NCBI GenBank assembly: GCA_029959195.1
Contig: CP114120.1
Location: 1,922,001 to 1,986,000 of the forward strand
Direction: 5' to 3'
Source: Dictyophora rubrovolvata
Taxonomy: Eukaryota; Basidiomycota; Agaricomycetes; Phallales; Phallaceae
Length of the DNA stretch: 64,000 bases
A program made the position numbers and the translations under genes. The notes below the pieces were generated by a model that had not been told where the DNA came from, ran no database searches, and saw only the letters and a list, made by a program, of their open reading frames with translations. This document shows, in pieces, positions 4,619 through 40,168 of the stretch (positions are counted from its first letter, which is position 1; each line of letters starts with the position of its first letter).

Positions 4619-7600
4619 TCAGCGTGGATAAATGTCTAATACGTACAAATAATTACGTTCAATTTCAGACAAAATAGAAAGAAAATCCCCTGTCAAATAG
4701 GCATAAGCAAAGGTACTAACTTGTAGCAATTGCCACCAACAGAGGTATGCATGGGCACGTGCCGCAGACGCAGGTGCTGTTTCCGCTTTTCTCACAGCAT
4801 CCAACAATGTCGAAGCGACGAAGCGCACTTTATGAACCTGAAGAGGGAAGAAAAAAGAAAAAAGAAGTGTCAATACAACAAAAGAAAAACAGACTAGCGA
4901 GATAAAAAGACCTACCAGGGATGGGCCATTAGTTGCAATCGATTGAATGGGAATGCTAATTGGCAATTGTGAGAAATTTTTGCGCAGCGAAAAGAAAAAA
5001 GGGGGTTTTTTATTTGTGTCACCTGTGTAAAACGTTCAACAGATCACTGGCGACCGCTTCACGATCTTCTTGTATTCTTGGCTCAGGTTCAATATGTTCA
5101 CCAATGGTGCTACGCATTGAGGTAACAAGTTCATCTCGATATTGTTCAATGACGAAACGAACAAGTTGCTAAATTGTGTGGTTTCCGGGGTTTAGAGCGT
5201 GATTCTATATATAGATTCTTTATGAAAAGTTATCTCACCTGTGTCACATACAAGTTGGCTTGCATAACAAGGTACGGATTTGACGCATTAGCGCGAGAAG
5301 CATTAGGGTTATCAAAGAAATCCTTGACTTCTGCGAAGGTAGCTTTAGTGAAGCCGGGACTATCGTAACTAGCGAATGACGGTTGTGATGCATTTTGTTT
5401 CTTGAGCTGCAAGGGTGGAGGCGCATGGGCCAAGGCAGTTACGATACGTTGATGTAATGATCGGATCTCTTCAAGCCGAGCTGTGGCAAAATGACCTTGT
5501 GGAGGAGATCGTTTGTCTACACGTATTCGGACGAGGATTTCACCCAGCAGTGCGAATATGCGCGAGATGTAATTCAAGCCTGAGATAATGGCGGTCTTGC
5601 CTGACGGTTGGGGTAGGATACCGTTTGGAGTGATACTTTAAGAGCACAAAACCAAAAGAGGAAGACGAATGTGAGAAGGAAAATTTTCGGTTAAACCTTG
5701 GAAATATACGCACTATTCATCATCAACCTCTTTTGGAAAATGAAGGGTGCAGTCTTCGTCCCTTAAGCAAATCGGGCGGCCCAATAGGATGGACATCGAT
5801 TTATCAGCTGCCCGCAATCCAGTCAGTCAAATAGATTCCGAGGGGATTGAAAAGAGAAAGCCGAAGACGAATAGAACCTCGCCATGTCAAAGAGAGATAG
5901 ACGCTAGGGACCAACAGTCTCCAAATTTGTCGAAGATGTGGCCCGAGCACCTACTTTTTTTGACAATCGAGGAAAAAAGAAACTGTGACACTCACCACCA
6001 AACAATAGCCAAAAGACGCGCCGACGTATTTCGCATTCAATTGGATCCAGTCCTTCGTATGACGCTTCCTCGTGCATATGTAGAGTCACTGCAATATGTG
6101 CAGCTTCACCGAAAGAAGCATGCGAAGTGGCGTCGTGGCCTTCGCAGAAATGATAGACGGTGTCACTGATTATAATAAAATAGAACAGAATAAAAAGAAG
6201 GGGGGAAAAAGGGCGTCGTCATCAGTCAAGAATACTATTTTTGAACTAGATTAAAAAAATGACTTACAAGTACCGAATAACAACGTGCATACTAGTTGGA
6301 GGATCATAACCAGCAACACTGATATGTCGACTGGCTTCATGACAAGTTTGTGCTAACTTACGGACCTCCCGGCGTTCTAACGGCAAGTAACTTCGGGGGA
6401 CCTGTACGCAAGTAGATGCAACTGTGCTCATAACAAGAGCAAAGAAGAGTGGATCGCGCTCCTCACGTCGCGATTGAAGATCGGCCATGAAAGATGGTTT
6501 ATGAATACAGGGAGTTAATGGATAAACGAAATCGAAGAAAAGAGAGATTATAAGCAGTATGGTTTCTCGAGGTGCTACATCTTCAATTCTGTGCGGTCGA
6601 ACATAATAAGACAGTGGAGGGAGAGACGGGGCATGTAATTGAGTATTCGCTGGAGCATGTTTGTATGGAGCAGACCAATTATACAGTGGGTATGGAGGAA
6701 ATTCAGGGGAACCGACGGCTCGGGAAAAAGAGTGAGAGCCTGAGTGATTTGAAGAGACAGTAGAGGCGCTGGAGGGACGACCATTGGGAAGAGGAGGTGA
6801 ATTCCCGCTTAGAGGATCTGAGAGGCGTGCGTCATATGGCATGGAAGCAGCAATTGGGGAGGGTTGAAGTGTATGATAGGTGTCCGCAGCGATGGGATAA
6901 CGAGAAGGAAGAAGTGGGAGATTGCTGTGGGCAGACGGAGAGACTGCATGAGCAAAGGAGTGTTGGTGAGATGTGTTAAGCGGGCTAGTAGCGTTGGCAT
7001 GTTGATCCATGAATGGGGAGGTCATTGTTGGGGATGAGAGATCGCTAGCTGAGATGGTGGGGGTTGTTTGGGAAGCAGAATGTAGGGTTGAATTATTCTG
7101 TGCAATTGATATTGAAAGCGGACCGTTTGAAATTTGACCATTTTCGGAAGCAGCTGCAGCTGCAGCGGCCTCTTGGAGCCGTCTCAAGTACCTTTTGATC
7201 ACGGGCACTTGTTAGATGGGGGAGAAGGAGAGATCTGGAGGGAAGAAGACATACAGATTTGGAGGACCTCTTTTCTTGGGCTGATATTCGTACGTGCAGG
7301 GAATTCCCAGTGAAATACAGTGTTTACAGGATCCTTGGGGGTCGTCTACGTTTTCTCTTGCACAGCGTACTTTCCGAGCGCGACAGGCATCGCAACCTAA
7401 CAGAAGCACAAAAAAAAAACACGCGATGTTCACATTTTAATGATCTGTGGAGATGGTGAACAGCGGGATTAAACCTCACTTTGTGATTGTCTCCTTTGCG
7501 GAAGGGAGAATTAATATAGAAGGAAGAGGGCTTAATATTATCGCTCACTTTCGTTTGGATTTGCCGTTCTCGTCCTTGTCTTTGGTCTCATCGCTCGAGG

Positions 7601-7646
7601 GAGACAAGCCGCGTGTATCGTCCTTCTTGGTGCGGGCAGCCGGCAT
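4619..7646 (-). CDS. Zn2Cys6 transcription factor with fungal-specific middle homology domain
   Basis: A fungal nuclear regulator. An N-terminal Lys/Arg-rich exon starting MPAARTKKDD (7646) leads to the binuclear zinc cluster GCDACRARKVRC...CKHCISLGIPC (about 7300-7400), with six cysteines spaced as in the GAL4 class. A low-complexity Ala/Ser/Pro linker follows. The fungal-trans domain (VAPRETILLIISLFFDFVYP, HKPSFMADLQ, then LHMHEEASYEGLDPIE and RRRVFWLLFGG) covers about 6270-5900. It continues as GRPICLRDEDC and a long helical C-terminal half to 4619. The target genes are unknown. An upstream in-frame ATG at 7808 is possible but would add a Pro-rich stretch. The zinc-cluster exon is preceded by at least one intron whose joins I could not settle. 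The stop at 4619 is provisional, because a reading frame encoding HLSTLKRQLSKVPRLDDDQ lies directly downstream. Confidence 0.8.
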
Positions 7647-8299
7647 CGATGTGGGGGACGTCGGTGCGAACGTCGTGGCCGTCGTCTTGGTCGTTGGCAG
7701 ATACTTGCGAGGAAGAAAGGTGAGCGGGGAGGGAAGAGAAAAGGGGAGTCGAGGGAAGCAGGGTTGAACTCGATTTTGTAGCTGTCCCAAAAAGACAGGC
7801 GTGACCAAAATATATATAAAGGCCGGACTTGATATGATATTGCAGCACGACGACAGACTGGAATATTATTATAAAATTAAAGAGAACGAATGCAGGTGTC
7901 CCAAAACTGAAGAACGTGGCAATTTCCTCGATAGTGATAACATCTTGTTCTTCCTGAATTCTTTGCAGAATTTTGTTTTTGTTTTTTTGTTTTGTTTTGT
8001 TTTTTTCTTTTTAGGCAATGTCGAAAAAAAAACACCAGATGGGTTTCCCATATTCGGTCTTGGCTTGCCATTGGAATCCCACATGTACGGCCAGACCCCC
8101 GCCACTGCCGATTAGCAACACTGCGGATCAACTTGTTATTTTTAAATGTCTTCATTATTCCCCATCATAATATTCTATAATGCTATTATACTGACAATTA
8201 TTTTAATTTTCATCACCTGTGAGTTGAGCTCCACGGCCAATTCCCCACGTCCGGTTTTTTTTCTATTCCATTCGACTTCCCCACAGCTGCAGTTTTTTC
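7647..8299. other. intergenic with T-rich tract
   Basis: The stretch holds the upstream region of the Zn-cluster regulator, including a TATATATAAA-like box near 7810-7819, and a low-complexity T-rich tract (runs of T broken by single G or C) at about 7971-8013. No convincing gene was seen. Confidence 0.4.
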
Positions 8300-10753
8300 T
8301 CATTCCCCCCCTCCGTTCCTCGTGCACAGAGATCGCCCTAATTCTCGTAACAGACGATCACGCTCAGGCGAGTCTAGGTTGCTTTCCTCTAATTGAGACC
8401 CGATTAGCTGCCGTAGTTTAACGGATTCGGGATCGTCCCATGACGTTCGATTTTTGACCAAGAGCTTCCAGAATTCAAAGGCCATCGCCGGTTCGCCCGA
8501 GGCTAGGGCAGCCGCTACATACCGTTCACCCATGCGAACAGAAAGTATATGCTGTTTACAATGATCCCGGTTTGGCCCCTCACTGGTAAAATACCGGATC
8601 ACCGTTTCGAGTAATTCTCTCAACGTCTCCAACCGATTCTGCTCTCGACCCTGCATCGTTTCGTCCATCGATTTAGCATGTGGTAATTCGGACTGAACAA
8701 TAACCGCTAAGCCTTTAGGTGTGAGTTGTGGATACCCAATTTCTCTTGCCCGTGCAATCAGTTTTCCGGCAATGTCCTCGTATCCCTGTTTAAAGGCCTC
8801 GTGAATCAGGGCGCTGAACCCAGATGCACTCGGCATAATGCCCATCGTTATCATATATTCTAGCACGCGGACCGCAGCCGGGACAGAATATATTGATATG
8901 GCCAGCAGAGCAATGTTCATGTCTTTGCTATCAGGGATATCGCCCCTATCCATAATAATAGAGAGCGTTTGAACGGCCTCGGGTATACGATCCAGAACCA
9001 AGTATGCACGAGCAAGCGCATTAATGTCCTGTTGCGACGCCTTATTGAGAGGTAGCTTCGTTTCTATATACTGCTGTACCACATGATTCGCAAACCTCCA
9101 GGCATCTGGCAAGACAGATTGTTTTCCTTTATTTAGCTTTGCCCTCTTGCGTGGCGACTTTTCCAGACTGTTATCCCAGGTTTTCTGCAGTTTTCGAAAC
9201 AATTTCACCACAGGAACAAGCATTTGTCCGCTTCCACAGACTGCGACTCGATCCGGCTCGTCGTCTCTAGTCCAAAGCTCATAAAAGTATCGAGTGTAAA
9301 AGCCAAATCCGCGACTAGCACAAACTGCTATGAACTTTCGTCGATCATTCACGGGAACTGAAACATTTCGCACAGCTATGTCTCGTAGAACGTTTTTGGC
9401 CATCCGAATATGTCCTTTCAATGGGGTAGATTCACCTTCCCCTCCACCGGTAAGACCCGGGTCCGCAAAATGTTCAAATAACCAAAACAGAGCGGGACCG
9501 CGGGGGGGTGGGTAATACTGCCTTTGCCGAATATAAGGGGAGTGAAAATAGGCATATAGGGCGCTCGCATCATTGATACGATCGTAGTGAAAGCAGTGGT
9601 CGTATAATGCCTGAATGTCACCATCGGGGATATCAACTGGTATCCAGTTCCGCAAAGAAGGTTGAGTAGAGGGTACGAGCGCTTGAACCAGACGTAAGGA
9701 GGATTCCAATTCCTTCTCTGAGGGTTCACGTACTACGACATGTAATACCTCTAAGGCTAACAAATTCGTGCCTTCATGGTCATAGTCTGTAGTAGATCGC
9801 GAGTCAAACCACCGAGGATCTTGGTATAAACGAAGTACCAGTTCAATACTGGTTATGTAATCATGAGCAAGTAGATGACCCAATATCAGGTATCGAGCCA
9901 CCGCGAGCTTGAAGCTACTGCCCTCGGAAATCTCATCCATTCCGGGAAGAAGTCGATTGTGGACGAATGGTTTGAAAAGAACCAGTGATTGTTCGTACAT
10001 ATCTTCCCCTTGCAATAGCATCTCTAGAACCAACTCCGACAGAAACCGAGGAATGCCTATGGAAAAGCAACCCTTCCGCTGGGACTGTTTCAAAAATGCC
10101 TCGCCGAGCGACTGAAGAGTGAAAACACACTCGTCTGGATAGAGGAGAGCCGCACTGTAGATTCCTTTCCAGACATCAAGCGATAAGTCAGGTAATTCTA
10201 CTAAGTCGATCATACAGAATGCATTATACAACGCAAGAGTCTGCGAAGGGTGAATGAACGGTGGTACGGCATTATTGAGAATAGCAGCAATGGCCTCAGC
10301 AAATTCGACTGGATTATGTTCTCGGGGAAAATATAAGAGGAGATCTTCGGCAAGAAATCTCATTAAAGTCTGATGGGTGAGAATGCTGAACTCTCGAGCA
10401 AGGATAGCATAATCAGAAGCCGAGAGCGTTTGAATAAAAGGTGTGTTTCGAAGTCGTTCATAGAGGCGTGAAACTGTACTGGAAGACAGCTTTTGGACCT
10501 TGACAAAATCAATTGCTAAAGTGCCCTCTTTACCCTTGGTCAAAAGAGTACGAAGTCGTTCTTCATCGGATGGCAGCTGGAACGGAAGATGGGGTGTGTT
10601 GGAGACAATATCGGAAGAGTATGATTGGGTACTTTGGCTGTAGACATGAGAAGGCCGAAGAGCTTGAATCAAAGTAGATTGGTATCTGAGCGTAAAAGTC
10701 CGACGAGTTAAAACGCGAATAAACTGGCGCGTTATACATGAACCAAGTGACAT
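8300..10753 (-). CDS. PPR-like mitochondrial protein, intronless
   Basis: A large single-exon protein of about 817 residues from the ATG at 10753. The same frame extends 20 codons further, to an ATG at 10813. I prefer 10753 because the protein then begins MSLGSCITRQFIRVLTRRTF, an Arg-rich, acid-free presequence typical of mitochondrial import. The body is all-helical. Towards the C-terminus it shows pentatricopeptide-like helical pairs, for example YLVLDRIPEAVQTLSIIMDR, then AVRVLEYMITMGIMPSASGF and GFSALIHEAFKQGYEDIAGK. PPR proteins bind RNA and act in organellar transcript processing or translation. The exact target cannot be told from sequence. I do not recognise an orthologue by name. Confidence 0.7.
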   Translation of the reverse strand: MSLGSCITRQFIRVLTRRTFTLRYQSTLIQALRPSHVYSQSTQSYSSDIVSNTPHLPFQLPSDEERLRTLLTKGKEGTLAIDFVKVQKLSSSTVSRLYERLRNTPFIQTLSASDYAILAREFSILTHQTLMRFLAEDLLLYFPREHNPVEFAEAIAAILNNAVPPFIHPSQTLALYNAFCMIDLVELPDLSLDVWKGIYSAALLYPDECVFTLQSLGEAFLKQSQRKGCFSIGIPRFLSELVLEMLLQGEDMYEQSLVLFKPFVHNRLLPGMDEISEGSSFKLAVARYLILGHLLAHDYITSIELVLRLYQDPRWFDSRSTTDYDHEGTNLLALEVLHVVVREPSEKELESSLRLVQALVPSTQPSLRNWIPVDIPDGDIQALYDHCFHYDRINDASALYAYFHSPYIRQRQYYPPPRGPALFWLFEHFADPGLTGGGEGESTPLKGHIRMAKNVLRDIAVRNVSVPVNDRRKFIAVCASRGFGFYTRYFYELWTRDDEPDRVAVCGSGQMLVPVVKLFRKLQKTWDNSLEKSPRKRAKLNKGKQSVLPDAWRFANHVVQQYIETKLPLNKASQQDINALARAYLVLDRIPEAVQTLSIIMDRGDIPDSKDMNIALLAISIYSVPAAVRVLEYMITMGIMPSASGFSALIHEAFKQGYEDIAGKLIARAREIGYPQLTPKGLAVIVQSELPHAKSMDETMQGREQNRLETLRELLETVIRYFTSEGPNRDHCKQHILSVRMGERYVAAALASGEPAMAFEFWKLLVKNRTSWDDPESVKLRQLIGSQLEESNLDSPERDRLLRELGRSLCTRNGGGE

Positions 10754-11302
10754 GCAGTTTACCTGATAAACGTCAATTGATATTAAAGTATTAGTAATGG
10801 GTCGACTTGCCACATTCCGCTTGGAAATAACGGTAATTAGGCCTTGAACCTCACTTCACAAAAAAGCTGTGGTAAGGAAACGATGGAAGTTTTCCTGCGT
10901 TGCTCCCGTATTACGTAAGCAATTTCGCCTGTGCTTCGAACAAGCTTCAAACTTTCTCCAACTGGCCTTTCAATATGACAAGTGACGTTCCGCGTTATTA
11001 TCATGAAATTTTTTTTTGTGGAATGATGAAAAAGAGACTAGAAAAGCGCACGCAAACCGATCTAGCTAACCGTGATTTATTGACTCGTTATTGGCCTTTA
11101 CAGCAACTTTACAGGCTGGAGATTACTATCTAGTATCATAACTCGGGCTATTCAATAGAACTGATTGGACTTCACGAACTAAAACTTAGTATCCAATATC
11201 TTAAGGTGAATTTCTTAGTAAACATAGATTTTGTCGCAGTGCTCCTTGCTTATACCGTGAGTAGGTGGAGGACACCAGTTGACTCACTTTCCCTCAGAAA
11301 AA
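10754..11302. other. intergenic, no gene seen
   Basis: The upstream region of the PPR-like gene and the 3' flank of the small 61-codon gene. No coding or structural signal was found beyond short spurious frames. Confidence 0.3.
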
Positions 11303-11601
11303 TTACGCTGTAATATCATCCATGAATTCGTCCATATGGTCCAAGACCGCCTCGTACAGGTCTAAGGTCATGTGAAGCAACAAGACAAAGATCTGTCGGT
11401 GTTAGTGTTTTACCATGGTCTCCGGCAGCTTATTTTGTCAAAACAATCATTCGTCTTTGAAATAAATATCATTTACAAAAATAATAAACACATGTGAGTT
11501 TCTACCTGGCAACGTCCCTTTTCAGCATAAGGCTTAATGACGCTACCCAGTGGCAGTGGCTTGCGCACGGTGACCTGACGTGAGGTATTTGGAGTATCCA
11601 T
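11303..11601 (-). CDS. small two-exon protein of unknown function (61 aa)
   Basis: Not recognised. The ATG at 11601 begins MDTPNTSRQVTVRKPLPLGS and exon 1 ends at Gln with a GTAGAA donor at 11505. A CACTAAC branch-point-like sequence and ACAG acceptor lie near 11395-11410. Exon 2 then continues in phase as IFVLLLHMTLDLYEAVLDHM and ends DEFMDDITA at a TAA at 11303. The join keeps the frame without adjustment, and both exons lie in otherwise gene-poor sequence. The protein has a basic first half and a hydrophobic-then-acidic second half that could form one amphipathic helix. It could be a small subunit of a larger complex, but nothing in the sequence says which. A spurious in-phase join is the alternative. 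Confidence 0.45.
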
Positions 11602-13901
11602 TCATGATGCATGATGCATCGTCATTGCAACCCCGCATCACGGTACTAAGGTATTATTAGAACTTTGTTTGAGAAACCTCGTGATAAATTAATTCTGGGG
11701 TAAGTGGCTGGCACTATTTACCAACGATGAACGTTTTTGAATTAATGGTACATGCGTTTCAGCGGCCCAGTGTTTTTTTTCGCGTTGAGAGACCAAGACA
11801 ATAACAGGGGCCAACTTTCCGTCCCGGAATCCCGCTTTTCGAAGTTGTGTAGTAAGTCTAATATTTTGTCCGAGCTTTATACCCGAGAATTGGTGTGGGT
11901 GATGATCTGTCTGTCTTCGTCAGAGGTCTTGTCAAAGCCACAAGAGTAATTGTGGTGTTTTTAGTATCCGTCGATTATTTTCGACAGCGTAGATCAACTA
12001 CAGGCGTCAATGATTATTTCCTAACAGGGTATATGGCCAAAGCGTTGCAGCCACAGTCCCTCAACCATCTGACCTCTCTTGACAGGTCATGAATAAGGAC
12101 TGATTCAACTTTAAAAATGGAAGAGGCAGCTTGTTCTACCTTTTTTTTTGGCTCGTGGGCATTTTCCCGGCATGTATTCGGATATCCTCGAGTATTTATT
12201 GGTTTTTTGACTTCGCCTCAAAGTCGATCAATGGTTTTTCTCCTTTGGGACGCATTATATCTCACAGGGGTTTCCGAGGGCACTGTATGGGTAACGGATT
12301 CATATACACCATTTTCATGAATTAAACTTTTATAACTCCTATCATTCATATTAAGAGACGACACTTATGCGGACAATACCGAGTTCTAGTGGACAAAAAT
12401 TGAAATAGCCACTGTAATCTTGGAAGAGTCAACACTCAAAGACAGCTGAAGCACTGTGAGTCTACACTTTATTCTCGTAGCCACGTTAATGATTATTTGA
12501 CTTTACAGAATCTAACATGACGTAAAATGGTAACTTCCGGTAACCTTCCGTTGGTTTCGTACCGTAGCGGAATCTTCTCTATCACCGACATTCAGTGATT
12601 AGCATGTTATAGCATAGAATCCTCCAAGAACGGCACCCTTGCGGAGAATTTGCTTTTAACAGCGTTCACTCCAATGATCACGAGCATGCATAAGTTATAA
12701 TAACTCAGATGAATGTCACATGGGTTGGTATATGATAATGCAATATTGCGTTACTTTTTCTAATTGGCGACGTGGAAGAGGTTGCGCTGATTCTCCCATC
12801 ATTCCTAGCTTCAAGTTTCTTAATTCTTGCTCAAGCCTGGTGGATCTAGAAGTTCATTGTAGGCTTACCTTCTCATAAACTCCGGTAATACTTTCTTTTA
12901 GCCCGGTTAGCCTATGACCGAGCATGTTCCGGTTGGGGAATGTCAATGAGTTTAGCTCCAAGGTTCGTTACCAATCGAGGTCTTTTCAGTTTCCAAATAG
13001 CATAACTTTGAGCTCAGCTTTTGATCACCGCGTTTGGTCCAGTACGACTTGGTGGCCTCCTTATGCAAACTCTGTAAAATCATCCTAAACAGGAAGTTCA
13101 AGTTCGTGCTGGCAATTCATCTCATTTTACTTGGGCCTGAGCGGTGATCACGCGCCTGGTGGCTTGCTGAAATTGAAAAGAAATTTTTTCCCTTGTTTAT
13201 GCAAAAATTGGCATTGGGCACACGCGTAAACAAAGAATAAACCCCTGAACAGGAAATTATTCTTCTAGAAACTAGATTTCAAACATTGGGGTTGGTCATG
13301 ACAGAAGCGACTTCTCTTTCTTGTGGCCTTTTTTTCAGAATATTCTCCGTTCGTTTGAAAGGGATCTATGACTCGATTTTTGCAGCGAGTTTATGCTTAT
13401 AAGGTTTCGAGTACTTGATAGACTCGTGACGATGCCATTGACTCGGACGGAGTATCCACCTTGGCCAAAGCATAGTTCCAAATCAGGGCGTGTTGCAACT
13501 CAAATTTCATGAGAAAAACAAAATTCCCTTGGTCAGGTCATCTGAATCGCCTCCAATATTAACTTTCCTTTCAAATTAAACCCGGTCATAACCCTTTTCG
13601 AATATGAAACAGAAGTTAACTTATCAAAAAAGTTTATGCACTCTGGTCAAGGGGCTTGTTGAACTCCAATTCATTTGTTCTTGTGACACCTGGATAAAAT
13701 CAGTCGATCTCCTTGCTAAAACATACTTTTTCCATAAAGGGTTTTTTAATCTAAAAATCAAGAAAACAATCGAAAATTGTCTGTGCGTGGGTCCGACGCG
13801 GTGTCAAACCCAAGCAGCGCGGAATCAAAAACCAGCCAGGTTACCAAATCGCGTCAGTCCGACATACTAGCTAGTAACCACGGTTGGATTTCGTTAACTC
13901 C
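11602..13901. other. 2.3-kb gene-poor stretch
   Basis: Only short, unrelated open frames occur here, none with a recognisable domain or consistent introns. A short direct repeat (CATGATG CATGATG) lies near 11603-11617. I see no TIRs, tRNA or rRNA. The last few hundred bases should carry the GRASP promoter. Confidence 0.4.
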
Positions 13902-31331: not shown

Positions 31332-31438
31332 CCCCTTCTATGGTGTACCTAACGCGCCAGCTTCAATTTTTGATTTTTGATTCTTGATATATGATCTGAT
31401 GAGCCCGGATATGCCCGTGTCTAAGTTTAGAGTAAACA
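31332..31438 (+). repeat. left 7-bp direct repeat plus 100-bp terminal inverted repeat
   Basis: CCCCTTC at 31332-31338 is followed by the 100-bp inverted repeat 31339-31438, which begins TATGGTGTACCTAACGCGCC. It matches the reverse complement of 38917-39016 at 99 of 100 positions; the one difference is T versus C in GATCTGATG/GATCCGATG. There are no gaps. Confidence 0.9.
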
Positions 31439-31611
31439 ATACTAGATAGCCCACATACAGAGAATATTCGAACTTGTAAAAAAAATGGGGGTAGCAATAT
31501 AATTGAAGTCAAATAGTACTAACACTACAGTCACGGACCAAAAATGTTTCTCCTCGGCGACTAGTGGCACCTAGTGCCCGAACTTTCCTAGCCTTAAGTT
31601 AAAAATAAAAT

Positions 31612-31690
31612 ATTGGTCGCTCGAGAATTGAACGAGCGGCGCACCATCGAAGTGTAGAGCACTTACCATTAAGACACAGCAATTCACGTA
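31612..31690 (-). other. tRNA-like (pol III A-box/B-box) sequence inside the left TIR
   Basis: On the minus strand a B-box-like GTTCAATTC (31625-31633) lies downstream of an A-box-like TGTCTTAATGG (31666-31676) with tRNA-like spacing. The T-arm and acceptor stems do not pair well, so this is a tRNA-derived relic or SINE head rather than a working tRNA gene. Confidence 0.4.
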
Positions 31691-32838
31691 TGTTAGCTTA
31701 ATTATGGGCCTTTTGAAGGTATGATTAGATGGTATTAGATGGTATATGGTAATTGTGGATTTACGTTGAAATGATTCAGCCGGCTTACAATCTATTCCTA
31801 GGAAATAATTTAAGCGTAACTACATGTATTTATAGTTGAAATTTAACTGTCTTGTCTTCCTATATAATTATAAATAGTATTTGCTGTAAGTGTTGGATGG
31901 AACACGGCACTAGCGTCAAATGTATTCCACTTGAAGACGTTGGGTAGATTCAGATCGCAGTTTATTCAGAAAGAAATAAAGAGAAAATAACGCTGAATTA
32001 ATTGTTATGTGTAGCCTCAATTTTTCTGCATATTTGTCATCAGAATTAGTTGCTTGCCCTCGCTCCTTCAACGTATTCTACTCGCCACTCACCCTAACTC
32101 ACATTTTACACCTCTACTCAATTCGCCGTCATGAGGTTTATATTTGTCACAAGAATATTGCAAATCCCGTTATATTTCTCCCAAAACCTATACAATTCGC
32201 ACCGTAAAACACCCGGCCTCCTCAATTACCTACAAATGTTCGTCAAAAACAATACAAACAAGCTTAATTATATACACGCTAAGCAATTACAATTATTGGG
32301 AGTTGTAAACCGAATTATTACCCGATTTTCTGGTTTATTTCATTTTGAGAAATGATTTCCATGTGTCCGCGACCGACTCTCATTCTCACCTCACCCTAAA
32401 CACAATTTCTGTTGATAAAAACCGTCGTTTGGTCAGGACTAACACCATCCACATATACGGAAATCACGATTCTGCCTGGGGTCCTCCCTGTCATTTGTTG
32501 AGGATTTGGAATAGAGGGAGAAAGGCCCAGCACTCTGTGCCATCAAAGGGGTGGCCATAAATATTTAAATACTAATGTTTTTTTGAATTTTTCATTCGAA
32601 TAGCTTGTAGTTTGAGTAATTATTATGATTCAACGAGTAATTATGTAGCATACACTGTGTTTTATTTAGATAAACATTGTAGCCTTCGTCACTAGTATCA
32701 GCGCTCGGATAGACAAGTCCTAAATTTATTTAAAGTTGTACTATCTGCCGTCTTTGTATCTACTGTAGTACTTATTTAAAGAATATCTTGTAACTAATTC
32801 ATCTGAGAAACAGCTCTAAATCCAAGAGCAGTACAAAT

Positions 32839-35800
32839 TTATCCGCATTGGTATTTTTTATTCCAATACATTATCCCAGCCGCTTCGAAATTATGTGGGA
32901 AATATGTAACAACAGCAGCCAAGCTTTCTTCATCTTCACGCGAGATCTCATGTTGACTGAATGACTAGTATAAATATCTCATAAAGTCAAGAAATTAAAA
33001 TCACTTACTCATGTGTCATTGCTGCAATGATTCTTGCGCAACTATCCGCTGTTCTCATATCTAAAAGACTTGAATGTAAGCTAATATACTATTAAGAATA
33101 GTCACATACAAGCCCATGACGTATGAACAAGTCCATTGCTGAAATGTTCATACAAAAAATGCAAGAAAGCTTCAAGCGTATCATTGATTAGTGCATTTTC
33201 TGACTCTGTATCAAAATCTGCATAGAACACTTGAGAAACAGCCAGTATGGGAGCACAGAGCCATTCCATGGCATTGTGGACTTCTGAACGAATACGGATA
33301 AGTTTATAATCAAAGCCAAGCTCTACGAATATCATAAGGAATCGCAACGTTTAGTGATTAAATTACTTACTCATAATCTCGACATTTCTGGACTTGGTGA
33401 GTGTTTCGAACTCTTCATATAATGACTGTAGATTGTGAAAGCGGTGTAGTTCAGCTATAATAGAGGTACCCTCAGGAGCTATCGCAATATGCGATGTATA
33501 TGCTGCTGCGACCTCATTTTTGGAAAATGTTACCTGGAAAACAATTTAGCGACAGAAATATAGTATGGATTTCTCTTACATTCCAAAATTTCGAACGATT
33601 CATGTTGTAAAGTTCCCCTTGATCAAGGGATATTCGGAGACTACCAGTGACCTCTTCACCCTTTTTAGGTATCATTTTGCCCTCGACAGGCTGACCATCA
33701 CCATCGACTTGCCGGCCCCAAAATGTAATCCCACATTGATAGGACTCTATTTCAAACCCTTGCTTCTTGGCGTCTTCCTTATTAGACAAGTGGGTTCCAG
33801 AGGATATGACACTTTGTTTTCGGGAACGCTTGCCAGATGAGATGGTGGTAGGAGGATACAAGGGATCTTGGGTTTCAGTGCTGATTGATGTGAACAATGC
33901 TTGCTACTCATTTTGGTACCCAAATCTAGAAAACGAAGGCTCTTGCAAAGCGAGTTACATGTATGCTGCTCTTTGAACTCTTCGACTCCCTTCTTCCCAT
34001 GATCTCCCAAACCCGAATTCCCATCATATCTGTCAATTTAATTCAATTGTTACACCAAACGAAAATTAAACCTTGAAGCCATACATATGTGTCATCAAAT
34101 CAAACAATGTAAGTAAATCTAACACATGGAAACCATCATGAAATTGCGGAGTCAGAATGCCTGTGTGATGTAAAACATTTCAAGTTCTGAATCATAGAAT
34201 CCTATTAACGAAACCTCTATACCTTGTATGTCCGTTAGTATTAGTTTTTCTTGAGTAGACACTAGTGAAAAATGCGCAAACACATCCATGGTTCGGCCTG
34301 GGATGGAATCATTGGATCCTGCAACCATAGTTCCTGAAAATTTGACAATGTTTTGTACAGATAACATCGGCGCCATTAAATAACACCATCCAGGATTTGT
34401 ACCCTGCTTAACTACAGCAATCCAGCTATCAGAAAAAGTGAAATCTTCATTCAATTAGCAAGATTCTTATCAGGAATTATAAAGTTACCTACTCGTGACA
34501 GGAATGTTACTCCGTTGTGCATACTCCAAAAACTGTTTTCCAAGATTAGTAGCAATGACATGTCGGGAGAGTTCATTTTCTAGGTGGCGCCGATTATCAG
34601 TATTGGAGATGATATTGTTGGATTTTCCTAAGTCGTAAAAACACTTTGCTGCGAACACTTCCTTTCCCAATGTTGCCTGGTATGTTAACAGTTTCAAAAT
34701 CATAATAAGAATATTGTAGTCAATTGGGCTTACGCGGTATATTTTTTTAGTTGTCCCTGATTGTTGCGCCTCTATGCTAATGTTGAGAATTAATGGTGTT
34801 GATGCGATATCAGTGGTCAACTTGTTGTCAGAAGCCAAAACTATATCCAATCGCTCGACTATTACTCTGGTCGATTGCACAGGCTGGGTAATGTAAGGTG
34901 CAGCTATCATCGTTTGAAACGCTAATTATATTTAAATTTGGGGTTCAGCTTGAAAGTTAGAACATACCACTAGTTTGCATCTCCATGCGCTTTGACTCAG
35001 TTGATGGTACACCATGAGTACTCCGGGTGATTTCTTTGGCTGCCTTACGCCGTTGTTGTAATGATATCGCCTGTTCTTCTGTATATGTAACTACAGCAGC
35101 ACAATGCAATGTTGGGTGATTCTTCTGAGACTCATTTCATGTGAGGAAAGTATCTTTACGGGCTGGTTCACTAACACGCAACCAAAGATACCCCAATGAA
35201 CCTGTCATCCATTCATCAACAAAGAATGACATGCTGGTACCCTTTAAGCCACAGAGAACGATCTGGCTTCTGAGCGATAATGAATAAAAAATAAAATAAA
35301 AATAAAAAATACAATTTGAACATCACTTACTCGTCCACATCCATGCTATGGCGTTCTTGTACTTGCCGCTTGGCAATCCCCCTAAATGTTGCTAAAATGT
35401 CATCCCAACGCTTTTCATTAGGATACGGGCTTGAGCGAGAGACAAAAGGAATGGTTTCAGTCTTGGTTCCCACATGAACAACAATGCGATCTAACTGAAT
35501 AAAAATATCAATAACTAAATTATGGCATAATATCTAATTACTCACTGCTACAGTAATCTGAGCGGGTTTTTTCCCCCCCATTTTAGGTGCTGACGATGAG
35601 ACCTTCGGCCTTTGCAAATTCTCAGGATCATTCACAAAGTGACGGGCAGAAACATATGACTCTCGCAAAGCCGAAATAATTTCTGCAGATTGTTTTCTAT
35701 CCTATGAATGAACAGAGTCAGAGATCCTGAGAAATATCAGTAGATAATGATATACGGATGCATCTGTAAATGCATCTGGACTGAGAGAAGCCACAAAGCA

Positions 35801-36293
35801 TTGGAGATCTGGATGGTCTACACGCGGATTGGTCAGTTCTTTCATTATGTCCTTGGCGTGTTGTACGACAGCAGAGGCTGACAACAAGTAAGCTTGTGGG
35901 TTATCAACGAAGAAAATTGCACATACCTGATAAAGTCTGCGATGAAGACTGTGACTGAGAGGGAGTGCCGGGTGGGTCCAGCTCTCGCATGGCATAGTGT
36001 ATTTGCTTAACCATAGCACCAGACGGAGATGTTCCTACATAATTATTAGCATGTAACCAATGAAATAATAACAACATACCGTAACCATTTTGAAGACAAT
36101 AGCCACAATAGGCAGTATTCAAACGTGGAAACAGTCGGCCACATTCAATGCATTGCTTTCCTTTGCTCTCACCACCTGCATCGATATCTCTGCAAACTCC
36201 ACAGGTAGCACCATCAAGATGAGGAAAAGATGTTCCGCAGGATAAGCAGACTGTCACAGGTGATGAAGCAGGTGTGGTGTGTGATGCAGACAT
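32839..36293 (-). CDS. zinc-ribbon / alpha-kinase protein carried by the TIR element
   Basis: The start MSASHTTPASSPVTVCLSCG (36293) opens an N-terminal double zinc-ribbon-like region with CxxC pairs (CLSCG, CGVC, CIECG, CGYC). Several helical, Ser-rich exons follow. The alpha-kinase (MHCK/EF2K-type) domain covers about 34900-33950: VFAAKCFYDLG holds the likely nucleotide-binding Lys, and then come IVKFSGTMVAGSNDSIP, TMDVFAHFSLVSTQEKLILT with DIQG, and EFKEQHTCNSLCKSL with the zinc-binding HxCxxxC end. The C-terminal extension (Lys/Arg-rich linker, then a helical domain) seems to end at 32839. Alpha-kinases phosphorylate Ser/Thr in helical substrates. Some joins, mainly just after the kinase domain, are uncertain, and I cannot say whether the product is functional. 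It diverges from the integrase gene. Confidence 0.7.
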
Positions 36294-37048
36294 TACAGAC
36301 TTGAAAGCACAAATTTGTTGTTTCTGAAGACGCATATAAGACTCATTAATATTTATATGAAAGGGCGAATTGAAATTTTATTCTTTGAAGTGACTAAACA
36401 CGTTACACCGAATATGCGCTTGGTTGTTGGTTGTGCTAGGTGTGCCCTGAGTCGGCTTCAGGAATAATGGATGGGTTTACCTAAATGTACACGTGTTACC
36501 TATGCGCTTGGTTGTTGGTTGTGCTAGATGTACCCCGTGTCGGCTTCAGGAATGCTCATATCGACCTTATCTTTCATTTATCGCTGCAGGTTTGGACAAA
36601 ACCATGTGTCTAATAAAATGGGGTACAGCATATAACACTATACACGAGTGTATGCAGGGCTTGGTATAAGCGCACTTGTGTGTATGTGTTTGACTCACAC
36701 GATCGTAATGAACTCATATCTTACCACTCATTTATTGAGGTTTGGACAAAACCATGTGTCCAGGAAACGGGCTGTAACATACACGAGCCTGCGTCGGTCT
36801 TATTAGTACTACAACTCATGTATGAGTTGGCTGCCTCGTGCTCGCTCCTGTATGCATGTTTTTTTTTGGTTACTCATCTTTTTCTCAAACTTTCTATTAT
36901 GTTCCATTGCCCCCTTTTTTCTTTTTGTTTCTTAACTCCCCAATTGTTCCAAATTTTTTAAAACGGCACTCCTTTCATTGAGTGTTTGTTCAACATCCTA
37001 CTCCTCCCCTCAGCCCTGCCTGAGTCTCGCTGTTTGTATTGTTCCTCA
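36294..37048. promoter_or_regulatory. divergent intergenic region of the element, with direct repeats
   Basis: The only spacer between the two element genes, so it should carry both promoters. A unit of about 51 bp beginning ATGCGCTTGGTTGTTGGTTG occurs at 36414-36465 and again at 36502-36552 (88-bp period, a few differences). A second unit, GGTTTGGACAAAACCATGTG, occurs at about 36589-36608 and again at about 36738-36757. A pyrimidine-rich tract near 36840-37020 leads to the integrase start. Regulator binding is inferred, not shown. Confidence 0.55.
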
Positions 37049-38615
37049 ATGCCTCCTCACAATCCTACCGGCATTAATCAATATTCTGCTGTCCGTACGT
37101 ATTCTATCTTTTAAGAGTCTGTCATCCCAATATTCAAGTTGAGCATATTTACAAGGTTCTGAGGCTGCGCACTAGGTTCCTATCATCCAACGTTACCTTG
37201 ATCAGAGTGTGAAAGTCAAGGACTTGTCATCTAAAATACTTGAAGAACATGGCATTCTCATTAGGTGCGTATCAATGCTCACCTAGCTTTACTTGAACAC
37301 TTATATTTTGCAAGCACACGTTCTATTCAATGGATGATGTGGGAACACAAAGTTCGAAACGCACATCGGCCACGTCTTTCTATCAGTCAAATGATTGAAG
37401 CAGTCGTCAAAATTACCACAGAAGATCCTTTGAACAAATGGGGAATTCGTCAAATTCAGGAAGAGCTCAAATTAGATTCTATTCACATACCCAGGTATGG
37501 CAATATATTACTCTTTTTGTTCAAATGCACATATAAAAAATTACAGGGTGGTAATTCAAGCTCTTCAGAGAGCTCGAGATCCCGCAGAAGCTAGGCATCA
37601 TCGAAGTGGCCGCAGAAAAATTATTCGCAAGGCGTTGTTCAGTGCAGGACCAAATGAAGAATGGTGTATGGATGGCCATGAAAAGCTTAGTGACACAATG
37701 GGGATTGACGTCTGGGGCATTTGCAATAAATTTTCGCGCTATGAGCTGGGATTATGGGCGGTCCCTAATGCTCGTCTCTCTCAAGTTCCTGTAGCACTAT
37801 TCCTTCGTGTGGTGAAAGAATTAAAGGGTACAATGCTTTTAATTAATTAATTCCTTCCGATTTTGATTCTATTTATTAGGTTTACCACTGCAGCTGACCA
37901 GAGATAAAGGATCTGAGAATGGTAAAGTAGGTATAATGCAGACTGTTCTTTGGTATGTCAAAACATATTCTTTCGTCTTAATGATAATTAATTAGTGTAA
38001 CCAGCAGAACACATTGCTTACCTTCACTCTCAATTGATAGCCTCCCACCAGTCCGATACATACAAAGTGTGCGTAATATTACACAGGAAAGGGGATGGTG
38101 ACCATTATGGGAGAAGGATTTGAAGAATATTCTGGACGCATGGACAATGGGGCAAGTTCGAGTTGATTATCGAAATGGCAATCGTATTCATAAGTATGTC
38201 TATTTCCTTACATATCCGATTTTTATTACATTCATTTTGTAGGGAACTAGGAACTTGGCTCTGGGCAAAAGTTGTCCAGAATCGGTTGGATCACGCCCGA
38301 GAACGCCAGGTAGTCCACCATATCAGAATACAAAGAAGAATTCTCCTTCCGAGTGGGGGTACCTCTTATGAGTTTTATCATTATCCGAGGAAGTTTTGCG
38401 GCACAAATATGTTGATTAAGATACCAGATATGTTAGTTATTGATGACTTACTTCAGGAGTTTGCAGCTGAGGAACATCTTCGTTTTGGTGATGAAACTTC
38501 GAATGCATTATTTGAAGCCCTATTTATCAAGGTTGGAAGTCCTAAACTCTCTCTTAGAAACACTTGGGGAGTTTGGCGTCGAATGATAGATTTATTAGAG
38601 AATATGACCCAGTAG
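37049..38615 (+). CDS. integrase-core (DDE-type) protein, candidate transposase of the TIR element
   Basis: It starts MPPHNPTGINQYSAV. A helical N-terminal region (VEHIYKVLRLRTRFLSSNVT, LSSKILEEHGI) resembles a DNA-binding HTH. The next exon has KWGIRQIQEELKLDSIHIPR and a basic ARHHRSGRRKIIRKA. The RNase H-like core shows EEWCMDGHEKLSDTMGIDVW (first Asp), LTRDKGSENGK (second Asp) and VRYIQSVRNITQERGW (likely Glu). The C-terminal part, KELGTWLWAKVVQNRLDHAR to the stop at 38615, is the family's helical domain. The same integrase-core family, as I remember it, occurs in many mushroom and some animal genomes with no agreed transposon name. Short introns are consistent with GT-AG. At least one break in the frame is visible, so this copy may not be active. 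Confidence 0.7.
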
Positions 38616-38764
38616 CTAGAATTTCTTGGGTATATGACAATTGATTGAACATGGAATTCACTTTGTATATATTATTTATTATTTGGTAAAAAAAAAATCG
38701 CTACGTGTGTGAGATTTAAACATTGAAATTAGAAACAACAATGCAGAATGCCCATCCAAAAAAA

Positions 38765-38840
38765 TAGACTCAAAGGGAACCGAACCACGAAGCTTACCAA
38801 AGTAGTAGGGTCACACCCCGCTGAGCCACAACACCACCTG
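38765..38840 (-). other. tRNA-like (pol III A-box/B-box) sequence inside the right TIR
   Basis: On the minus strand TGGCTCAGCGG (38818-38828) resembles an A box and GGTTCGGTTCCC (38775-38786) a B box, spaced as in tRNA genes. Stem pairing is poor, so it is tRNA-derived rather than a confirmed tRNA. It differs in sequence from the copy near the left end. Confidence 0.4.
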
Positions 38841-38916
38841 CAATACTTGTTAAACAGGTATATATAACTAACTTTAACGAGATCTTAACTGCCACGGAGA
38901 CAAAAGCCAGGTAAGC

Positions 38917-39023
38917 TGTTTACTCTAAACTTAGACACGGGCATATCCGGGCTCATCGGATCATATATCAAGAATCAAAAATCAAAAATTGAAGCTGGCG
39001 CGTTAGGTACACCATACCCCTTC
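38917..39023 (-). repeat. right 100-bp terminal inverted repeat plus 7-bp direct repeat
   Basis: 38917-39016 is the inverted partner of 31339-31438 (99 of 100 identical), ending GGTACACCATA. It is followed by CCCCTTC at 39017-39023, identical to the 7 bp before the left end. Confidence 0.9.
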
Positions 39024-40168
39024 CATCACTCCCCCCCCCCCCCCCCCCCCCAATTTTTTGTGAAGCTCGAGACAGGGCGTCCCCTGGCATCCCTTGGGTT
39101 TAAGTACATAAGTGCTGAGTAGGTAATATATACCAATCCTTTAAATATGGCTCTAATTACTGTTACAGGATAATGGCCCTTCCCATTGTGCAGCTATGTG
39201 GTGTGTAAAACGTGAGTAAAGCCCGAAATTTTTGTCACCCTGACTAATGACAATACTAGACTTGCAGTAAAATTCTTAGTAGCCTAGTAGTGTAATTTTT
39301 GTAGTGTATATAACGTTCCCTTGTACATAGTTAAGGATTATGTAATTCATAATTCATAATACAAGTCGTTTTAACTTTAACATGAATTGTGCTAATTGCG
39401 CCATTTGAGCTGATACAATGAAAATGAAAATGATCTGCTAATGTATCTAGACCTGCGAGTTTCTCCCAGATCATTGCCATGCATTCCTGATACTGCTCAC
39501 CTCAACCTGACCAGTCCTGCACATTCCAGATCTAAGTCTTGAATCTGATCAGGTCCGTCAGGAGGGGTACTCCTGACGGAGCCTGAAGGCCAGATCAGAC
39601 CAGATCTGGCACTTTCGAATTTTGCGACATGGGTTTCGATCCTACAGCCGACCTACTAGACATTGCTTTAAGTGGATCTCACGATCTGTCACCCTAGCTT
39701 GCAGACTTCTCACAACAGCCAGTGGCTTTCGCGGGCCACGGGCAGAAGAAATTACGAATAGTCGAGTCGTTTTATACCGATGTGTCAGTTAAATTATGGG
39801 CGTTCTTCTTGCTCATTCAACAATGTGTTTCAGCTCACATTCTGTTGAGGACAGAGACCTGATAGGTTACTAAGGATTCAATATAGAGGCCACGCATGGT
39901 ACAAAAAGAACGCAAAAGGGCGACTTGGGGGATTCGGTGAATTTTTTAGTCGTGTCTATACTCTAGAAGGACCGTTGAACTCAGAGGTTGCCACTGACAG
40001 AAAACATTGTCGCCAAGATAATCAGGGGAGATGGTGATATAGCCGTATCTTGCCATTATACGCGAGATCAAACATATTGAAAATCCAATGCATATCTCTT
40101 GCGTTCCATGCGATATGAAGGAATCTATATTGTTCTAAAGAGTAAACAGTTACCCGCCCACAAACTCA
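39024..40168. other. gene-free flank with poly-C tract and hairpin
   Basis: No gene was seen. It holds an uninterrupted run of 21 C at 39031-39051 and, further on, an 11-bp stem hairpin at 39554-39580 embedded in a larger imperfect inverted repeat (CTGATCAGG...CCAGATCAG). The 3' end of the DHA1 transporter gene follows. Confidence 0.5.
39554..39580. repeat. perfect hairpin, 11-bp stem, 5-nt loop
   Basis: TCCGTCAGGAG (39554-39564), loop GGGTA, CTCCTGACGGA (39570-39580). Flanking AGATC/GATCAG motifs add imperfect pairing. No gene ends here, so a transcription terminator is unlikely. A MITE core or old palindrome is more plausible. Confidence 0.6.

Follow-up and report, generated by a model that had tools for sequence, protein, structure and literature searches.

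The window, a stretch of 64,000 nucleotides from Dictyophora rubrovolvata, contains a single inserted unit at positions 31339-39016. This unit is bounded by terminal inverted repeats (TIRs) of 100 nucleotides with a complementarity of 99%, one at 31339-31438 on the plus strand, starting with TATGG, and one at 38917-39016 on the minus strand, finishing with CCATA. The heptamer CCCCTTC abuts the element on the left (31332-31338) and on the right (39017-39023) as a 7-bp target-site duplication (TSD). A search of the window for the first 22 bases of the TIR, tolerating up to 3 mismatches, gives two matches, compared to a mean of 0.00 matches in 100 shuffles. The TIRs and flanking heptamers agree with an earlier sequence-only reading, according to which the whole stretch moved in as one unit. 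From left to right, the interior is comprised of a subterminal stretch of about 1.36 kb without a recognised gene (31439-32793), an alpha-kinase gene on the minus strand (32794-36293), a divergent intergenic region of 755 bp (36294-37048), a transposase gene on the plus strand (37049-38615), and a right subterminal stretch, likewise without a recognised gene (38616-38916). Four reading frames of the left subterminal stretch gave no Pfam match at E values up to 0.1, and the element contains no stop-to-stop frame of 180 amino acids or more. Short direct repeats are found in the intergenic region at 36413/36501 and 36588/36738.

Just inside both TIRs lie tRNA-like stretches, which are called neither by ARAGORN in default mode nor by Rfam at E values up to 1. 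With lowered thresholds, calls appear, and the lowest threshold yields dozens of them across the element. The single weak match in Rfam, to HYMAI, has an E value of 0.43 and scores far under the gathering threshold; it spans the right TIR together with the poly-C run and is taken as chance.

The transposase shows the integrase core rva_4 of Pfam (PF24764) with an E value of 2.1e-07. Its approximately seven exons, placed by eye and therefore approximate, lie at 37049-37094, 37156-37264, 37315-37494, 37547-37827, 37880-37952, 38007-38193, and 38242-38615, and at least one premature stop interrupts the gene. The D, D, and E columns, which we take to be catalytic, align with those of relatives. 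Inspection of the translation by eye reveals no HHCC motif in the N-terminal part. The alpha-kinase gene has many exons, whose boundaries by eye are also approximate, and at least two premature stops. Its product matches Pfam Alpha_kinase (PF02816, E 1.2e-20) and shows an N-terminal Cys-rich part followed by the kinase domain and a C-terminal extension that is common to the kinases of Clathrus. The Lys and Asp residues, presumably catalytic, and the Cys/His residues align as well. The Pfam matches on opposite strands bear out the earlier description of an integrase-core gene and an alpha-kinase gene facing apart. The nearest protein matches of the element come from Phallomycetidae (Agaricomycetes), and a scan of viral contigs revealed no relative.

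The genome (28.2 Mb, 11 contigs) was searched with the TIR, giving counts that are lower bounds: at least four matches, corresponding to at least two elements. The second element with both ends, G000:C6:2281804-2297008, carries the same two genes and the same TIRs, with the termini TACGG..CCGTA and the TSD GAGTGGT. The TIR search suggested by the sequence-only reading thereby recovered a second copy that brackets the same genes and is flanked by a different duplication, and the TSD is 7 bp long in two of two copies of this family. The two copies are 95.8% identical over 5.4 kb and 96.2% over 2.2 kb. Their differences amount to 288 transitions versus 5 transversions, and 204 CpG-type events account for 241 of the 293 mismatches, leaving 52. 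RIP at CpA was considered, as C-to-T changes at CpA seemed frequent, but these are mostly CpG sites hit on opposite strands. Decay through CpG methylation is preferred over RIP because CpG-type events explain most of the mismatches. Since the change between copies is mostly of this kind, neither the near-identity of the TIRs nor the identity of the copies is a good measure of age; the low number of transversions is compatible with a recent move. In both copies, each of the two genes is interrupted by one or more premature stops. The ratios of dN/dS between the two copies for four exons (0.38, undefined with a dS of 0, 0.83, and 0.30) rest on few changes and are uninformative.

IS3EU has been listed in Repbase since 2013, and its members show TA..TA ends and TSDs that are "usually 6 bp" (Kojima and Bao 2023, PMC10045372, on IS3EU/GingerRoot). 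The available part of a study by Kojima (2025, PMC12730594) describes fungal IS3EU with TAYGG..CCRTA ends, long TIRs, and a 6-bp TSD rule, and with the transposase and an alpha-kinase in opposite orientation in those families that carry a TET/JBP gene. The window element shows the same ends, TIRs of 100 bp compared to more than 30 bp in IS3EU, a DDE integrase-like transposase that likewise lacks HHCC, and an alpha-kinase gene opposite the transposase. The sequence-only reading could name no superfamily; this part of its claim gives way to the match in ends, long TIRs, and divergent genes. Based on ends, TIRs, and gene content, the window element is very probably an IS3EU-type DNA transposon of the cut-and-paste class in a decayed state. 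The family belongs to an already known kind, and its unusual point is a TSD of 7 bp rather than 6 bp. This length is a deviation and not an exclusion from IS3EU because those authors write "usually" (PMC10045372). Three frames of the 755-bp spacer show no TET/JBP gene between transposase and alpha-kinase at Pfam E values up to 0.1; this gene marks the TET-positive subset only, rather than all IS3EU.

Other superfamilies fit the element poorly, in line with the earlier exclusion of Ginger and Polinton, with which both TSD length and domains agree. Polinton/Maverick elements carry DNA polymerase and capsid genes and generate 6-bp TSDs; no polymerase or capsid domain is found in 3 translated pieces and 7 further frames of the window element, and its TSD is 7 bp. 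Ginger1 and Ginger2, with TSDs of 4 bp and 4 to 5 bp (PMC10045372), are ruled out by the same length. Two fungal groups, hAT7 and Kyakuja (KDZ), do make 7-bp TSDs according to the available text of PMC12730594, so that membership in one of them would account for the heptamers. Kyakuja has CA..TG ends and no TIRs (PMC12730594), in contrast to the TA..TA ends and 100-bp TIRs found here, and a hAT domain is absent from the translated pieces; the only transposase domain at Pfam E values up to 1 is the rva_4 integrase core. The chance that the element belongs to either group is negligible.

Four other IS3EU-type elements of the same genome have both ends readable, and all have 6-bp TSDs, three of them exact and one with a transition mismatch. 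The closest relative found, G000:C7:2107888-2133484 (TSD CCTGAG), shares gene order and orientation with the window element, and the TIR ends can be aligned. Its integrase exons are 78% identical in protein to those of the window family over 149 codons. Unlike the window element, it has many nested-repeat interruptions; its integrase is cut short and its kinase is present as fragments only. For integrase exons 2-4 pooled against the C7 family, dN is 0.124 and dS 1.72, a ratio of 0.07 over 149 codons; when the three exons are taken singly, dS reaches saturation in two. The remaining three, C6:246238-254573 (TSD AATTAG), C3:388663-395472 (GTTACT), and C11:164734-172188 (GGAACC/GGAACT), are 6.8 to 8.3 kb long with the ends TATGGTGTAC. 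They also contain divergent integrase and alpha-kinase genes but differ from the window element in their 31-bp TIRs. Their integrases are only distantly alike, with profile E values between 6e-11 and 2.5e-9 when 42 six-frame translations are searched. A 180-amino-acid piece of the C11 integrase gave no Pfam match, yet the family profile matches this integrase. A search of the genome with the Pfam rva_4 family came back empty, which does not imply absence, as introns probably split the domain.

As the closest relative has a 6-bp TSD, the length must have changed within a close group. The contrast between 7 bp in both window-family copies and 6 bp in the four other elements could instead mark a separate, undescribed superfamily near IS3EU with merely similar termini and genes. 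This is very unlikely, given the 6-bp TSD of the C7 family and the retention of TAYGG ends and a divergent kinase in the more diverged families of the genome. It is equally improbable that the true TSD is 6 bp, as the IS3EU rule (PMC10045372 and the available part of PMC12730594) and the four relatives would suggest, with one extra flanking base kept or added at one end and matching by chance. Such a match in both of only two 7-bp copies would occur in about 1 in 16 cases. With symmetric TAYGG..CCRTA ends, however, the last six bases on the left and the first six on the right differ in both copies, and the extra base must differ between the copies yet match in both. The window family probably acquired its 7-bp spacing secondarily, since related families in the genome show a 6-bp stagger.

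Among the matches listed, the alpha-kinase stands beside an IS3EU-type transposase at six of seven genome loci. Outside the window family, a sensitive profile search places a diverged integrase next to the kinase at four of five loci. At the C1 locus, the integrase is weak by profile (E 2.2e-4), and the DNA aligns with the other loci at about 67%; at C11:1638655, no integrase lies within the 9.9 kb read. In Clathrus columnatus, the locus tags of the kinases Clacol_009004 and Clacol_010508 are adjacent to those of the integrases Clacol_009005 and Clacol_010509, and the contigs of each pair agree in length. Among the Clathrus matches found, two of four integrases have a kinase partner, and the other two integrases and one of three kinases have none. 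The alpha-kinase is probably a conserved second protein of the element, rather than a passing captured gene. A host gene taken as cargo, without a role in transposition, would be compatible with IS3EU-type identity and with the occurrence of alpha-kinases outside transposons (relatives in the PDB), as well as with the one kinase locus of seven without a nearby integrase. This reading is rather unlikely: the pairing recurs in two diverged element groups of this genome, in Clathrus, and, according to the available part of PMC12730594, in rust IS3EU, and the single kinase exon tested, the first, has a low dN/dS of 0.22 against the C7 family (59 codons).

In the proposed mechanism, the transposase would bind the 100-bp TIRs and excise the element, and the 3' ends would then be joined to the target at two phosphodiesters staggered by 7 bp, with host repair of the stagger producing the 7-bp duplication. 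The available portions of the IS3EU literature name no role for the alpha-kinase; its likely, though hypothetical, function would be to make movement possible by phosphorylating either the transposase or a host factor involved in silencing or chromatin. Both copies later decayed, chiefly through C-to-T changes at CpG sites, with cytosine methylation as the putative cause. They probably need an active relative for movement, if they are mobile at all.

The broader proposal is a tentative one, held at somewhat less than even confidence: one IS3EU lineage changed the stagger of its strand transfer from 6 bp to 7 bp, close sister families in the genome stayed at 6 bp, and transposition strictly requires the alpha-kinase as a second protein. 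Superfamily filing uses TSD length, which here differs by a single base between sister families of one genome, and the 7-bp and 6-bp families form a natural pair for asking what sets the stagger in an integrase-like transposase. In the available text of two studies, the alpha-kinase family is "highly expanded in the rusts" (PMC4469406) and, under the heading "Protein modification", enriched 2.34-fold in wheat rusts compared to eight other basidiomycetes (PMC5295586). If the proposal is true, the fungal alpha-kinase "expansion" may largely reflect genes of transposons rather than of host signalling, and should rust alpha-kinases mostly be IS3EU genes, the reading of that expansion as "Protein modification" changes.

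The fungal element Styx of Zymoseptoria offers a further comparison, drawn from the available part of its description (PMC10853768). Styx is derived from IS3EU and contains TIRs and a DDE transposase, as does the window element. Unlike the latter, it shows 6-bp TSDs and four coding sequences, two of which are restricted to Zymoseptoria, and the term alpha-kinase is absent from the available main text. Styx is about 7.9 kb long, and decayed copies of it were mobile.

The element at 31339-39016 of the window ends in terminal inverted repeats (TIRs) of 100 nt each (31339-31438 and 38917-39016, 99% complementary). The target-site duplication (TSD) CCCCTTC lies immediately outside both, which bears out the sequence-only reading of this stretch as one inserted unit. 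A run of 21 C residues at 39031-39051 starts seven bases past the right TSD. A TIR search of the surrounding genome (28.2 Mb in 11 contigs, with the window at G000:C4:1922001-1986000) gives at least four matches, two in the window and one each at C6:2281804 and C6:2297008; the matches listed contain no ends of this family beyond these two copies. The second copy (G000:C6:2281804-2297008) measures 15,205 bp and shows 95.8% identity with the window element over 5.4 kb and 96.2% over 2.2 kb. Because it brackets the same two genes between the same TIRs with a TSD of its own, GAGTGGT, the check proposed by that reading, a further copy flanked by a different 7-bp duplication, is positive within this genome. 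The surplus length of the second copy is nested DNA sited between the transposase and alpha-kinase genes. A nested stretch of ∼7.1 kb (element positions 5366-12441) is built of two inverted arms of ∼2 kb that are 95% identical, is bordered by a near-duplicate of ∼40 bp of local sequence, and is followed by an additional insert of ∼400 bp. Degenerate tRNA-like stretches on the minus strand, with parts resembling A and B boxes by eye, lie just inside both TIRs of the window element (31600-31700 and 38757-38850). Neither ARAGORN in default mode nor Rfam calls them, and genome searches with 31595-31700 and 38750-38855 find only the two window-family copies among the matches listed.

The nearest related family found is represented by a 25.6-kb element on contig C7 (C7:2107888-2133484) with identical gene order and alignable ends but with a 6-bp TSD, CCTGAG. 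This element contains many nested repeats, its integrase is cut short, and its kinase is fragmentary. Several copies each of a ∼400-bp and a ∼2.3-kb repeat, many of them inverted, lie in and around it and the C5 element (region C5:1082500-1102300), and a frame resembling a tyrosine recombinase by eye is found in its nested part (C7 about 2131-2133.4 kb). A more diverged group has 31-bp TIRs (TATGGTGTACATTTC...), with both ends present in three elements that are 95-96% identical among themselves: C6:246238-254573 (TSD AATTAG, 6 bp), C3:388663-395472 (GTTACT, 6 bp), and C11:164734-172188 (6 bp, GGAACC at the left end versus GGAACT at the right, a single transition apart). An element near 423 kb of C1 and a solo end at C11:575843 also belong to this group. 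The TSD is thus 7 bp in both window-family copies, compared with 6 bp in all four other elements with both ends readable; the C5:1089174 relic, the C1 element, and the solo end, with an end missing or not read, are left out of this count. Comparison of the flanks of both window-family copies gives no 6-bp reading with symmetric ends. By parsimony, the 7-bp length is derived rather than ancestral.

The transposase gene (37049-38615, plus strand, about seven exons) encodes a DDE integrase core (PF24764 rva_4, E 2.1e-07), and the alpha-kinase gene (PF02816, E 1.2e-20) runs on the minus strand from 36293 down to 32794; exon boundaries of both were placed by eye. The kinase consists of a Cys-rich N-terminus, the alpha-kinase domain, and a C-terminal extension common to Clathrus kinases. 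Its PDB relatives (query residues 519-605) are myosin heavy chain kinase A, eEF2 kinase, and a TRP-related kinase (best E 2.1e-05). The Cys-rich part (36083-36293, minus) has weak, sub-cutoff Pfam zinc-finger matches, including PF10497 (E 0.038), a family also named among those enriched in wheat rusts in passages of PMC5295586. Pfam (E up to 0.1) matches nothing in seven additional reading frames outside the two genes. An exon-by-exon check of six transposase and thirteen kinase pieces, short of the whole genes, shows premature stops in both copies: at least one (transposase) and at least two (kinase) in the window copy, and at least four and at least one, respectively, in the C6 copy. In the window copy, exon 2 of the transposase holds a further stop codon that may alternatively mark a splice site. 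As assembled, both copies look non-autonomous.

The alpha-kinase is part of the element. A family search finds at least seven kinase matches in the genome, and an integrase of this kind adjoins six of the seven listed: the two window-family copies and, in a profile search over 42 six-frame translations, C3 (E 2.5e-9), C6:253k (1.2e-9), C11:171k (6.4e-11), and C1 (2.2e-4). The seventh kinase locus, C11:1638655, has no integrase in the 9.9 kb read; it lies between the two members of an inverted 164-bp pair that by eye look partly alike (C11:1634000-1643900). Neighboring locus tags on same-length contigs, rather than sequence, indicate the same pairing in Clathrus columnatus (integrase Clacol_009005 with kinase Clacol_009004, and Clacol_010509 with Clacol_010508); the integrases Clacol_003316 and Clacol_001047 and the kinase Clacol_004688 lack a comparable partner among the protein matches. 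Between the window family and the C7 element, integrase exons 2-4 pooled give a dN of 0.124 and a dS of 1.72 (ratio 0.07, 149 codons), and the first kinase exon gives 0.257 and 1.19 (ratio 0.22, 59 codons). These ratios, rough because dS is near saturation (it is saturated in integrase exons 2 and 4 taken singly), point to both genes having evolved under purifying selection between families.

The two window-family copies differ at 293 positions of their shared alignment, by 288 transitions and 5 transversions. CpG-type events, 204 in number, explain 241 of these differences, and the copies retain 125 intact CpG sites in common; the observed/expected CpG ratio is 0.75 in the element and 0.96 elsewhere in the window. 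Decay of methylated cytosines would leave such a pattern, and TIR identity is therefore unusable as a clock. Work cited in passages of Kojima 2025 (PMC12730594) detects no hypermutation in Agaricomycotina and finds CG methylation in Agaricus bisporus almost wholly confined to transposons.

Of the mechanism, the termini, TSDs, gene content, and shared catalytic-type residues are directly observed. By analogy to integrase-type DDE enzymes, the transposase would bind the element ends and excise the element, followed by strand transfer into the target with a 7-bp stagger and repair by the host. As a guess, the kinase might target either the transposase or a silencing factor of the host.

Literature searches return no paper combining alpha-kinase with transposon, basidiomycete, and integrase, or with integrase core domain and Agaricomycetes; PMC12730594 is the one paper they return that names alpha-kinase together with IS3EU. 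Passages of PMC4469406 and PMC5295586 describe alpha-kinases as expanded or enriched in rusts. Titles, abstract openings, and passages among the 15 papers listed of 206 hold no 7-bp TSD for IS3EU, and Repbase may contain such a family. In the passages seen of Kojima and Bao 2023 (PMC10045372), GingerRoot and IS3EU form one lineage, and TA..TA termini are found in all complete IS3EU families, whose TSDs are usually 6 bp. Passages of Kojima 2025 (PMC12730594) describe fungal IS3EU families carrying a TET/JBP gene, with TIRs of >30 bp, TAYGG..CCRTA ends, 6-bp TSDs, and oppositely oriented alpha-kinase and transposase genes. No TET/JBP gene is recognized by Pfam (E up to 0.1) in the 755-bp spacer of the window element. 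The closest transposase proteins come from Clathrus columnatus and Gautieria morchelliformis, both Phallomycetidae, with the top four at 49-58% identity. The window element matches IS3EU on the features tested except for TSD length, which is 7 bp in contrast to the 6 bp of the TET/JBP-bearing fungal families.
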